NCBI GenBank assembly: GCA_016199485.1
Contig: JACQGO010000248.1
Coordinates: 1 to 35,206, forward strand
DNA length: 35,206 bases
Source: Betaproteobacteria bacterium
GTDB taxonomy: Bacteria > Pseudomonadota > Gammaproteobacteria > Burkholderiales > SG8-41
Direction of reading: 5' to 3'
How positions within the stretch are numbered: the stretch's first letter is position 1; each line of letters opens with the position of its first letter. Positions 6,602 to 11,555 of this stretch are shown here, one piece after another. The position numbers were made by a program, and so were the translations under genes. The notes below the pieces were generated by a model. That model ran no database searches. It saw nothing but the letters and a program-made list of their open reading frames with translations, and was not told the origin of the DNA.

Positions 6602-6625
6602 TTCATCATTCATCGTTCATCGTTC
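6602..6625. repeat. Short 7-bp tandem repeat (TTCATCR x ~3.4) spanning the 3' end of the RNA methyltransferase gene
   Basis: ttcatca ttcatcg ttcatcg ttc; upstream GATGAATG (6565-6572) is the reverse complement of CATTCATC (6607-6614). Confidence 0.8.
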
Positions 6626-7420
6626 CGCATTGACCTGCAGCTGTCTCACCCTCTCGAACAGGCACACCGCCGCGGCCGCCCCGACGTTGAGCGACTCGGT
6701 CCCGCCCGGCATCGGGATCGCGACGACCTCATCGGCCGCGACGAGCAGCGTGCGCGACAGTCCCGCGCCTTCGTTGCCGAACAGAAGCGCGATATCCCCC
6801 GTGAGATCGGCGGCGAACACCGAACGCGCGCCGCGCCCGCCGGTAGCGACGACGCGGCCGCGAAAGCGCCTGAGAAAGCCGGTAAGATCGACGCGCTCGT
6901 GAATCGCGAGCAGGAAATGTGCGCCCATCGCCGCGCGCGTCACCTTGGGCGACCATGCTTGCGCGCAGCCCTTCGAGAGCAGCACGTGTCGCGCGCCGGC
7001 TGCGGCGGCGGAGCGCAGGATCGATCCCAGGTTCCCGGGATCCTGGACGTCCTCGAGCGCGACGCAAAACTCGCGGTCTCCCACGGGCGGCGGCGCTAGC
7101 TTGCGGGCTACGGCTAGGATACCTTGAGGTGTCGCCACTTGCGAAATCCGCTTGAACAGCGCGTCGCTCAACACCGCCGGCTCCTTCGCACCGGAATCCG
7201 CCAGCAGTCTCGCGATCTCGGGCCGCCCCAGCGCCGAGGCGCTCACCACCATGCGTTGCGGCACACCGACGTGTTCCAGGTACGCCGCCACGAGATGCGC
7301 GCCGTCGAGCAAGACCTGCTCGACGTGTACGCCCTCCCGCGCCGAGCGCGCGAGCGCCGCGAGCGACTTGAACAGCGGGTTGTCGCGAGAAGTGATGGGG
7401 CTGGCGGTCAGAGCGCGCAA
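6617..7420 (-). CDS. TrmH/SpoU-family RNA methyltransferase (start uncertain; no ATG, TTG at 7420 proposed)
   Basis: ...ITSRDNPLFKSLAALARSARE...VALEDVQDPGNLGSILRSAAAAGARHVLLS...LLFGNEGAGLSRTLL...IPMPGGTESLNVGAAAAVCLFE (SPOUT motifs). Confidence 0.88.
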   Translation of the reverse strand: MRALTASPITSRDNPLFKSLAALARSAREGVHVEQVLLDGAHLVAAYLEHVGVPQRMVVSASALGRPEIARLLADSGAKEPAVLSDALFKRISQVATPQGILAVARKLAPPPVGDREFCVALEDVQDPGNLGSILRSAAAAGARHVLLSKGCAQAWSPKVTRAAMGAHFLLAIHERVDLTGFLRRFRGRVVATGGRGARSVFAADLTGDIALLFGNEGAGLSRTLLVAADEVVAIPMPGGTESLNVGAAAAVCLFERVRQLQVNAER

Positions 7421-8715
7421 GTGCGGAAGCCGGCAAACACGTCGCGCCGTTCGGGGGTGTAAAAATTGCGCCAGGTGTTGCGCAGCAGGTTCGCCCGCGT
7501 GGCGAAGCAGCCGCCGCGCAGCACCTTGTGGTTGCCGAACCACGGCTCGGAGTATTCCTGGTAAGGATCGCGCGCGTACCCGGGGTACGGCTGGAACCAA
7601 TCCGCGGTCCACTCCCAGACGTTGCCGAGCATCTGCCGGCACCCGCACGCGCTGTCGCCCCCGGTGAACGCCGATACATCGGCGAGCACGTTGACGACGC
7701 CGAACAGATTCGCGTGCCCCGGCTGCGGCACAGCCTCTCCCCACGGGTAGCGGCGCTTGGTGATTCCGTCCGCGTGGGGCGCCGGACCGGCCGCAGCGCA
7801 TTCCCATTCCGCCTCGGTCGGCAGTCTTCTGCCCGCCCATCTGCAGTAGGCGTCGGCCTCGTACCAGTTGACGTGAATCACCGGTGCATGCGGCACGAGC
7901 GGCGCGGTCACGTCGTACGTGCGGTGCAGCCATTCGCCATGCTGTTTTATCCAGTAGACGGGAGCCACGGCCTGCACGCTCTCGCGCCATTTCCAGCCAG
8001 CGGCGCGCCAAAGGTCGCGGCGCGTGTAACCGGCATCCTCCACAAACGCCGCGAACTCGGCGTTGGTGACCGGTGCGCGGGCAATCGCAAACGGCTCGAG
8101 CCTGACTGCATGCGCCCACTTCTCGTTGTCGAAGACGAAGCCCGCGGCGGGAACGGCGCCGAGGGGAAACTCGCCTCCGGCAACGTTCGCATCGCCCGGC
8201 CACGGCCCGGTGCACGGGGATGCGGCGAGCGCCGCCGGGAGCCGCGGGGCGGCATAGCCCAGCGTCTGGCGAGTGTAGGTGAAAGCCTCGCAGTGCATCT
8301 CCTCGTGATACGCCGCGAGCTGCACGAAATAGCCGAGATGCACCGTGCGCCCCTCGCGTTCGATCCGCTGCAATACGCGCTCGAGCACCTGCTGCAGGTA
8401 ATCGAGCGTCGCATCGAACCCGGGCAGAGGCAGCTCCCAGCGCGTATCGTGCGGCACCCGGGCCGAATCATAGAGTCGGTCGGCGTCCGGCAGCAGCGAA
8501 GGCGACAATTCGCTTCCCGGCTGGTAGCGCAGGCACCAGTGCTCCTGGAACCAGCCGACGTGGCCGATCTCCCACAGCGGCGGGTTGACGATCGCAAGCC
8601 GCGGTCCGAGGAGCCGCTCGCCGTTCAAATCAATGGAAAGCGCGAGCGTCCGATCGCGCGCCGCGCGCAGCAGGCCGGCGAGCTCTTCGCCCGGAAAACG
8701 CAAGAACGGCGTCAT
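7408..8715 (-). CDS. senA: EgtB-family iron-dependent sulfoxide/selenoxide-type synthase; selenoneine synthase SenA candidate
   Basis: DinB-like N-terminus (WEIGHVGWFQEHWCLR, YHEEMHCEAF = HxxxHxE) plus FGE-sulfatase domain; C-terminus DPYQEYSEPWFGNHKVLRGGCFATRANLLRNTWRNFYTPERRDVFAGFRTCAL of EgtB-X type; divergent from a senB-like gene. Start taken at internal ATG 8715 (MTPFLRFPGEEL). Confidence 0.82.
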   Translation of the reverse strand: MTPFLRFPGEELAGLLRAARDRTLALSIDLNGERLLGPRLAIVNPPLWEIGHVGWFQEHWCLRYQPGSELSPSLLPDADRLYDSARVPHDTRWELPLPGFDATLDYLQQVLERVLQRIEREGRTVHLGYFVQLAAYHEEMHCEAFTYTRQTLGYAAPRLPAALAASPCTGPWPGDANVAGGEFPLGAVPAAGFVFDNEKWAHAVRLEPFAIARAPVTNAEFAAFVEDAGYTRRDLWRAAGWKWRESVQAVAPVYWIKQHGEWLHRTYDVTAPLVPHAPVIHVNWYEADAYCRWAGRRLPTEAEWECAAAGPAPHADGITKRRYPWGEAVPQPGHANLFGVVNVLADVSAFTGGDSACGCRQMLGNVWEWTADWFQPYPGYARDPYQEYSEPWFGNHKVLRGGCFATRANLLRNTWRNFYTPERRDVFAGFRTCAL

Positions 8716-8731
8716 GAAGCGGCGTGTCTGG

Positions 8732-8737
8732 TATAGT
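8732..8737 (+). promoter_or_regulatory. Possible extended -10 (TGGTATAGT) for senB
   Basis: TG at 8729-8730 then TATAGT at 8732-8737, 45 nt before the senB ATG; no clear -35. Confidence 0.3.
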
Positions 8738-8755
8738 GCACGAGATCTTCGCCAG

Positions 8756-8766
8756 TACACAGTGTA
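8756..8766. promoter_or_regulatory. Palindrome TACAC-A-GTGTA in the senA/senB divergent intergenic region (operator candidate)
   Basis: Exact 5-bp arms; a second TACAC-N-GTGTA lies at 9174-9184. Confidence 0.35.
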
Positions 8767-8782
8767 GCGTGATCGACAGGAC

Positions 8783-9730
8783 ATGAAAATCGCGCTCGTT
8801 ACTCCTGCCGGCGCGCGTTCACGCTACGGCAACCGCACAACCGCGGCGCGCTGGGCGGGGTTGCTGCGGGGGCTGGGTCATGAAGTGAGGGTCGAGGTCA
8901 CGTGGAGCGGAATCCGGGCGGACGCGATGATCGCGCTGCACGCGCGCCGCAGCCATGACTCGATCAGGCGTTTTGCGCTCGCATTCCCGGACCAGCCGCT
9001 GATCGTCGCGTTGACCGGCACCGATCTCTACCGCGACATCCGCTTCGACTCCTCCGCGCAGGAATCGCTCAGGCTCGCGACGCGGCTTGTCGTGCTGCAG
9101 GACATGGGTCCCTGCGAGCTCGCCGCCCGGCTGCGGGCGAAGACGCGGATCATCTACCAGTCGGCGCGGCCGCTACACCGTGTAGCCCCGCTCAAGCGCT
9201 GTTTCGAGGTCTGCGTGAGCGGCCATCTGCGCGATGAGAAAGATCCGTTCCGCACCGCCGCAGCGTTGCGCTTCCTGCCGGCTACGAGCCGCCTCCGTGT
9301 CACCCACATCGGCGGCGCGATGAGCCCGCAGATGGCGGACGAGGCGCGCGAGTGGATGGCGCGCGAGCCCCGCTACCGCTGGCTGGGGGAATTGCCACAC
9401 TGGAAAGCGCTCAAGCTCCTTGCGCGCGGCCGGCTAATGGTGATCAGTTCGCGCATGGAGGGCGGGGCCAACGTCGTCACCGAAGCGCTTGCCGCGGGCG
9501 TGCCCGCCATCGCCTCGAGGATACCCGGGAACATCGGAATGCTGGGCGCGGATTACGCAGGCTACTACACGCTCGAAGACGAGGGCGCGCTGGCGGAGCT
9601 CTTGTGGCGCGCCGAAAGCGACCCCGGCTACTACCGGCTGCTCAAGCGGCAGTGCGCGGCGCGACGCCGGCTCGTGACGCCGCGACACGAGACCGCAGCG
9701 CTCAAGGCGCTGCTCGCAGAGCTTGCCTGA
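8783..9730 (+). CDS. senB: TIGR04348-type glycosyltransferase; selenosugar synthase SenB candidate
   Basis: MKIALVTPAGARSRYGNRTTAARWAGLLRGLGHEVRVEVTWSGIRADAMIALHARRS...LIVALTGTDLYRDI...GHLRDEKDPFRTAAALR...SRMEGGANVVTEALAAGVPAIASRIPGNIGMLGADYAGYY. Confidence 0.85.
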   Translation: MKIALVTPAGARSRYGNRTTAARWAGLLRGLGHEVRVEVTWSGIRADAMIALHARRSHDSIRRFALAFPDQPLIVALTGTDLYRDIRFDSSAQESLRLATRLVVLQDMGPCELAARLRAKTRIIYQSARPLHRVAPLKRCFEVCVSGHLRDEKDPFRTAAALRFLPATSRLRVTHIGGAMSPQMADEAREWMAREPRYRWLGELPHWKALKLLARGRLMVISSRMEGGANVVTEALAAGVPAIASRIPGNIGMLGADYAGYYTLEDEGALAELLWRAESDPGYYRLLKRQCAARRRLVTPRHETAALKALLAELA

Positions 9731-9820: not shown

Positions 9821-10396
9821 TTACCGCTTTCCGCTCGCCAGCAGCGCCCGCACCGGTGCGAAGCTCCTGCGATGCACCGCCGAGACACCGTGGATGCGCA
9901 GCGCGGCAAGATGCGCCGCCGTCGGATATCCTTTGTGCCGATCGAAGCCGTATTGCGGGAAACACTGGTGCAGCGCCAACATCACGGCGTCCCGCGCGGT
10001 CTTGGCGAGAATCGATGCTGCCGCGATCTCGGCAACGAGGGCATCGCCTCCAACGACGGCCCGTGCCGGGAACCTCAGTTGCGGGCAGTGCGGCCCATCG
10101 ACCACGACTTCGGCCGGCTCGCGCTCGAGGCTCTCCACCGCGCGCCGCATCGCGAGCAGTGTCGCCTGCAGGACGTTGAATGCGTCGATCTCCTCGACCG
10201 AGGCGCTTGCCACGGTCCAGCAAAGCGCGCGCGCCTTGATCTCTGCCTCCAGCCGCTCGCGCCGGCGTGCGCTGAGCTTCTTGGAGTCGTCGAGCCCCGC
10301 AATCACGCAATCCGGACCGAGGATGACCGCTGCGGCGTACACCGGGCCGGCCAGCGGTCCCCTGCCCGCTTCATCGACACCGCAGATCAGCCGCAT
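9821..10396 (-). CDS. rnhB: Ribonuclease HII
   Basis: [26 protein letters not shown]...[11 protein letters not shown]...[18 protein letters not shown]. Confidence 0.97.
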
Positions 10397-10403
10397 GATC
10401 GCT

Positions 10404-11555
10404 CTATGGTTGCAGGAGCGGAAGGATCGCCTCGACCGCCTTGCGCGCCGCATCCTGGCGCAGCGCAGCGCCAAGTTCCGCGAGACGGCTCTCCAGGCGC
10501 GCGCGCACCCGGGTGTCGTTGAGGAGATTGAGAAGCGCCTGCGCCAGATTCTCCGGCGTCGCGTCGTCTTGAAGGATTTCCGGCACGATGAACCGGCCGG
10601 CGAGAATATTGGGCAGCCCTACGTACGGGAGGTACTTCTTGCGGCAAGTGATCCACCACGACAGTCGCGGCATCCGGTAGGTGATCACCATCGGCCGCCG
10701 GAGCAGCGCCGCTTCGAGGGTCGCGGTGCCGGAGGCGGCAAGCACGACGTCGGCGGCTGCGATCGCTTCGTGCGCGTGGCCGAACATGAGCGTGAACGCC
10801 TGGTACTGCGCTTCGTTCCGGTAGAGCGCCGATTCGAACATCTCCTTGGTCTCTCGGGTCGCGAGCGGAACGAGAAACAGCGCGTCCGGAGCGGTGTCGC
10901 CGATGCGTCTCGCGGTCGCAATGAACAAGTCCGCCATCTGCACGAGCTCGCTCACGCGGCTGCCGGGCAGCAGTGCGATGACGCGCGCCGCAGCGGGCAG
11001 CCGCAGCTGCTCGCGCATCGCGCGGCGGTCGGGAAATCCCGCCAGCACGTCCGCGAGCGGATGGCCGACATAGGCCGAGGCGATCCCCGCTTCATCATAG
11101 AGCGCCTGCTCGAACGGGAACAACGTGAGCACCTTGGAGACCGCGCGCCTGATCTTGCGCATGCGCTCGCGCCGCCACGCCCAGATCGCGGGGCTGACGT
11201 ACTGCACGGTGGGGATGCCATGCGCGCGCAGGCGCGCTTCCAGATCGAGGTTGAAGTCAGGCGCATCGATGCCGATGAACACATCCGGCGGCTCGGCCAG
11301 AAAACGCGCGGCGAGCCTGCGGCGGATGCCGGTGATCTCGAGATAGTGCCTGAGCACCTCGACATAGCCGCGCACCGCGAGCTTCTCCATCGGATAGAGC
11401 ACGCGCATTCCGGCCGCTTCCATTCTCGGCCCACCGACGCCGACGAACCGCGCCGGCGCGATGCGCTCCCTGAGCGCGGCGATCAGGTGCGCGCCGAGCA
11501 AATCGCCGGACGCCTCGCCCGCGACCATGCCGATATACGGCGTCGAGCGGCTCAT
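10404..11555 (-). CDS. lpxB: Lipid-A-disaccharide synthase
   Basis: [25 protein letters not shown]...[14 protein letters not shown]...[12 protein letters not shown]...[10 protein letters not shown]. Confidence 0.98.

Follow-up and report, generated by a model that had tools for sequence, protein, structure and literature searches.

Do the two divergent genes on contig JACQGO010000248.1 of a betaproteobacterium encode a route to selenoneine, or does an EgtB-like gene lie here beside a glycosyltransferase gene to which it is unrelated? In the window, i.e., the whole stretch of 35,206 nucleotides that was analysed, the pair and the region between the genes are located as follows.

Positions 7408 to 8715, minus strand: senA, putative selenoneine synthase, an EgtB-like non-heme iron enzyme of the long form (435 aa; DinB_2 plus FGE-sulfatase).
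Positions 8783 to 9730, plus strand: senB, putative selenosugar synthase (Se-glycosyltransferase, GT-B; 315 aa), the activity being predicted from the family.
Positions 8716 to 8782, no strand: divergent senA/senB intergenic region, 67 bp, read directly.

The pair is very probably a selenoneine biosynthesis locus with senA and senB back-to-back. The initial annotation, which proposed this function, gave the coordinates and strands of both reading frames and the 67-bp gap correctly. A longer in-frame start of senA is available (ATG at 8784); position 8715 is the likelier start, because ATG 8784 overlaps the start codon of senB and the entire intergenic region. The senA product had been described as a DinB-like half joined to an FGE-sulfatase half, with a C-terminus of the EgtB-X type. 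This agrees with its Pfam domains (PF12867, DinB_2, 42 bits; PF03781, FGE-sulfatase, 190 bits) and with the EgtB-X signature TIGR04373 (100 bits, cut-off 71). The profile searches suggested in the same annotation further assign it to NCBIfam NF041186, 'selenoneine synthase SenA' (516.8 bits, cut-off 420). The senB product, in which Pfam recognizes a glycosyltransferase of group 1, scores 427 bits against TIGR04348, currently named 'selenosugar synthase SenB' (cut-off 300), and was thus rightly called a TIGR04348-type glycosyltransferase. The E values of the profile matches of the two proteins (4e-155 and 3e-128) are far beyond chance. SenA stays below the cut-off of the OvoA N-terminal model TIGR04344 (133 bits, cut-off 400). 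It also matches the EgtB model TIGR03440, as would be expected if it were an ordinary ergothioneine EgtB that uses cysteine or gamma-glutamylcysteine, with the glycosyltransferase unrelated, but the 343.6 bits obtained are under the cut-off of 360.

The active site allows a closer distinction. The relevant positions of SenA are these.

Positions 8560 to 8562, minus strand: His52 (His51 of EgtB), an Fe ligand, from the alignment; invariant in 32 homologues.
Positions 8293 to 8307, minus strand: His137-x-x-Met140-His141, two Fe ligands, with Met in place of EgtB Gln137, from the alignment.
Positions 8440 to 8451, minus strand: His89 and Arg92, replacing EgtB Arg87 and Arg90 (gamma-glutamylcysteine binding), from the alignment.
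Positions 7552 to 7563, minus strand: Tyr385 (catalytic Tyr377 of EgtB) and Tyr388 (Met401 of OvsA), from the alignment.
Positions 7459 to 7467, minus strand: Asn417-Phe418-Tyr419 of the hercynine pocket (Gln430-Ala431 of OvsA; Asn414-Trp415-Asp416 of EgtB), from the alignment and the title of PDB entry 8ux5.

The three-His Fe site and the catalytic Tyr are intact in SenA of the window (His52, His137, His141, Tyr385), and the metal-binding motif YHEEMHCEA reported earlier is indeed present, with His137 and His141 in it. At the positions equivalent to EgtB 51/87/90/134/137/138/377/380/414/415/416/420, the pocket letters are HHRHMHYYNFYR in the window SenA and HHRHMHYYNFFR in VpSenA, against HHRHMHYMQAYR in OvsA and HRRHQHYYNWDR in M. 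thermoresistibile EgtB. Window SenA and VpSenA have the same letters, with Tyr419 versus Phe as the sole exception. In EgtB, Gln137, Asn414, and Trp415 bind hercynine, and an Arg pair, i.e., Arg87 and its neighbor, binds gamma-glutamylcysteine (PMC9103826). That Arg87 and Gln137 are changed to His and Met in the window SenA, as in VpSenA, argues against an ergothioneine enzyme. Moreover, several relatives hold separate EgtB paralogues that bear the EgtB pocket letters, and the adjacency of SenB to senA is near-universal, which is difficult to reconcile with an unrelated glycosyltransferase.

A second alternative is an OvsA-like enzyme, which would transfer the selenosugar onto free histidine and yield ovoselenol. 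OvsA of Halomonas utahensis is the solved structure nearest to the window SenA in sequence score as well as in predicted fold (pLDDT 83.5), followed by Variovorax SenA and EgtB. This top PDB score is misleading, because a segment of some 50 residues in the FGE domain was lost from VpSenA and is kept in the window SenA (residues 310-363; window 7627-7788), OvsA, and EgtB. The segment is also absent from the short-form relatives, and the short form of SenA looks derived within Burkholderiales. More informative are the three positions that distinguish hercynine from histidine pockets, all of which are of the hercynine type in the window SenA. Wild-type OvsA has Met401, Gln430, and Ala431, whereas the window SenA carries the hercynine-binding triplet Tyr388, Asn417, and Phe418 at those positions. 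The title of PDB entry 8ux5 presents OvsA M401Y/Q430N/A431F as 'a hercynine-binding variant with selenoneine-biosynthetic activity'; because its Tyr/Asn/Phe match this triple variant, the window SenA is predicted to be of the hercynine/selenoneine type. The comparison shows a residue test, Tyr/Asn/Phe versus Met/Gln/Ala, that would separate selenoneine from ovoselenol enzymes.

Phylogeny, another check that the initial annotation had put forward, points in the same direction. A broad tree of 126 rows has a single clade of 45 rows, most of them betaproteobacterial (SH-aLRT 95), that contains both the window SenA and VpSenA; EgtB and OvsA lie outside it. The corresponding 19-row clade of a careful tree of 43 rows again includes both proteins (support 99/99), and EgtB forms a separate clade (100/99). 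Neither outcome that the initial annotation had named as refuting it was seen: SenA of the window groups with VpSenA and apart from EgtB, in trees with OvsA but no OvoA, and the glycosyltransferase lies within TIGR04348. In AU tests, pairing of the window SenA with OvsA (p = 0.003) or with the EgtB of M. thermoresistibile (p = 0.004) was rejected, and pairing with the EgtB set narrowly so (p = 0.046); OvsA and the M. thermoresistibile EgtB are long branches, the exact placement of which is unsure. An OvsA identity was rejected on the pocket residues and the tree, and the occurrence of EgtD in the host genome also speaks against it. An EgtB identity, with which EgtD would be compatible, was rejected on the cut-off, the residues, and the tree. 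Both readings are considered highly improbable, to the same degree.

Across 311 positions, SenB of the window shares 44% identity with VpSenB, and its best PDB matches are 8k5u and 8jjn. It keeps 13 of the 16 examined residues taken from a structural study (PMC10891094), including Lys158 (K153 in the window), which is critical in VpSenB (PMC10891094), as well as Asn20, Thr23, Glu231, His58, Arg61, Thr83, Thr85, and Arg155. The changes V157E, T214A, and H235N are among the residues that contact the sugar or uracil. None of them predicts an inactive enzyme, because in the structural study V157 variants lost part of their activity and T214A gained activity (PMC10891094). These three changes, together with the identity of only about 45% between the window SenA and VpSenA and the extra segment kept in the former, would also suit a pair that makes a related metabolite, through another acceptor betaine, as a sulfur analogue, or with a retained sugar conjugate. 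The key hercynine-pocket positions are nevertheless identical, and EgtD co-occurs with SenA in 89 of 95 genomes; this reading is only marginally less improbable than the two above.

For the preferred reading, a selenoneine locus, the remaining enzymes have to be supplied from elsewhere in the genome, and they are found there. EgtD, the source of hercynine, is encoded on contig C80 of the host MAG (393 bits) and SelD, the selenophosphate synthetase, on contig C264 (421 bits). The selD gene contains an in-frame TGA, read as a selenocysteine codon, and it lies beside and divergent from mnmH, the gene for the tRNA 2-selenouridine synthase (L004 1379-3633). SelA is encoded on contig C253 (586 bits). 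In this host, senC/selD is not clustered with senA-senB, as SelD is on a different contig beside mnmH; the pathway requires the SelD enzyme and not its clustering with the pair. Selenophosphate of the host is thus shared among selenoproteins, selenouridine, and, probably, selenoneine. EgtB was not found in the host MAG (82% complete), and the only other protein with an FGE domain, on contig C218, was rejected as a second EgtB, since by eye it resembles a caspase-like/FGE fusion. Given that the MAG (3.95 Mb, 383 contigs) has a completeness of 82% and a contamination of 3.4%, a foreign origin of the partner genes, which lie on other contigs, is conceivable, and the absence of EgtB is no proof.

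The locus looks complete, and its parts would cooperate as follows. SelD would make selenophosphate, which SenB, as the predicted Se-glycosyltransferase, would couple with a UDP-sugar, probably UDP-GlcNAc; after removal of the phosphate, a 1-seleno-sugar would result. EgtD would trimethylate histidine to hercynine. In an O2- and Fe(II)-dependent reaction, SenA would then link the imidazole of hercynine with the selenosugar, giving a selenoxide that would break down to selenoneine.

Co-occurrence was determined in 199 related genomes, the host's own included. SenA scores over the cut-off in 95 of the 199; SenB is present in 91 of these 95 versus 15 of the 104 others (Fisher 5e-35), EgtD in 89 (p 1e-25), and SelD in 91 (p 6e-7), all with the relatedness of the genomes ignored. 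Outside the host's family, where relatedness is likewise ignored, SenB occurs in 24 of 27 genomes with SenA versus 15 of 98 without (p 1e-12). Of the 74 genomes sampled within the family, 68 have SenA over the cut-off, and the senA-senB pair is shared by almost every member of the sample. The assignment of the two genes as senA and senB is supported by observations of five kinds, i.e., family cut-offs, active-site residues, phylogeny, EgtD and SelD in the genome, and co-occurrence in relatives.

Either gene can also occur alone. Fifteen relatives have SenB and no SenA over the cut-off (e.g., G116, G141, G136, and G179). In several of them, such as G116 and G141, SelD lies directly beside SenB, and this adjacency hints at other selenometabolites. 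In some of the fifteen (G148, G184, and G196), SenB has in its vicinity a SenA-like gene with a score under the SenA cut-off. Conversely, Methylomirabilota (NC10) have SenA homologues (L056, L053, L054, L068, L069, and L109) that are 55-60% identical to the window SenA; SenB over the cut-off is found nowhere in their genomes, and SelD is present. One egtD-senA locus of these bacteria contains EgtUV-like transporter genes: in L056 (2879-7585), egtD is followed by the senA-like gene, a ProV-like ATPase, and a substrate-binding/permease fusion, the best PDB match of which is the ergothioneine transporter EgtUC. Furthermore, a SenA-like clade (SH-aLRT 99) with SenA-type pocket letters lacks an adjacent SenB (L157, L158, L159, L160, L164, L098, and L109). 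Two of the genomes with a member of this clade, G051 and G171, have a regular senA-senB pair in addition; G106 has neither SenB nor SelD.

The arrangement of the pair involves the following additional features.

Positions 8729 to 8737, plus strand: candidate extended -10 box of senB (TGGTATAGT), from motif conservation.
Positions 8761 to 8766, minus strand: candidate -10 box of senA (TACACT on the minus strand), from motif conservation.
Positions 9821 to 10474, minus strand: rnhB (ribonuclease HII), flank of the conserved site, from synteny.
Positions 10404 to 11555: lpxB, after rnhB.
Positions 6617 to 7405, minus strand, provisional start: SpoU-family RNA methyltransferase gene, directly downstream of senA (PF00588, 125.6 bits; adjacency in the family).

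The genes are indeed divergent, but the initial annotation was misleading in setting this layout against a senABC operon. Among 109 homologous loci (some genomes counted twice, once per collection), 72 are divergent, 26 have senA-senB in tandem, and 11 are without a nearby senB, so a special status of the divergent layout was rejected. Tandem pairs occur in Acidobacteria, Myxococcota, Planctomycetota, and others, and in short-form, VpSenA-like loci of G128, G121, G111, and G095, senA is divergent from senB-selD. The cultured Methylobacterium brachiatum (L111) likewise carries the divergent pair. Most relatives with the divergent layout of the window have gaps of about 30-70 bp. Two divergent promoters within the gap would transcribe senA and senB. 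The motif TGNTATA[AGT]T toward senB is found in 24 of 43 intergenic regions versus 0.1 expected, and the -10-like AGT[GTA]TA toward senA in 28 of 43 versus 2.3 expected, both by mononucleotide shuffles. The candidate promoters overlap, with a box spacing of 32 in the window versus the usual 15-19.

The site of the pair is fixed in the host's family as lpxB-rnhB-[senB<>senA]-spoU, with lpxB and ppsR beyond the rnhB and SpoU flanks. In the SenA-less members G017, G033, and G052, rnhB is directly beside spoU (~26 to 72 bases apart), an arrangement that may be ancestral or may have arisen through a loss. G032, without EgtD and without SenA over the cut-off, has at the same rnhB-spoU site and in the orientation of senB a diverged SenB-like gene (L183 2923-3921; 79 bits, cut-off 300), apparently a decaying or repurposed SenB.

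These data extend the likely selenoneine producers to a betaproteobacterial family known here mostly from MAGs (SenA over the cut-off in 68 of 74 sampled genomes) and to loci from many other phyla. Tentatively, and with some doubt, selenoneine could be a fixed core trait of this largely uncultivated family, given the conserved lpxB-rnhB-spoU site and the conserved overlapping promoter pair; some members, such as the host MAG, in which EgtB was not found, would possibly use hercynine for selenium only, selenoneine replacing ergothioneine. Of most use beyond the locus itself are the residue test and the SenA homologues that occur without SenB.

Among known systems, the sen cluster of Variovorax paradoxus, with SenA, SenB, and SenC, was reportedly described by Kayrouz and co-workers in 2022. 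This selenoneine cluster is treated in three articles (PMC9814287; PMC10891094; PMC10702425). The window resembles it in having SenA and SenB over the curated cut-offs, in the pocket and catalytic residues, and in the SenA clade. It differs in that SenC/SelD is on another contig and not beside the pair, that SenA is of the long form, and that both proteins are only about 45% identical. With OvsA of H. utahensis (ovoselenol; PDB 8u41/8u42), the window SenA shares the fold, the length class, the Fe ligands, the Met in HxxMH, and a His at the EgtB Arg87 position, but it has Tyr/Asn/Phe instead of Met/Gln/Ala and is on a separate branch (AU p = 0.003). With EgtB (type I of M. thermoresistibile, PDB 4x8b, and the paralogues of relatives), it has in common the fold, the His triad, the equivalent of the hercynine-binding Asn414, and, for type I, the catalytic Tyr; unlike EgtB, it has Arg87 changed to His, Gln137 to Met, and Asp416 to Tyr, scores under the TIGR03440 cut-off, and lies outside the EgtB clade (100/99). 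Altogether, the locus is a well-supported, ordinary example of a published and widespread system.
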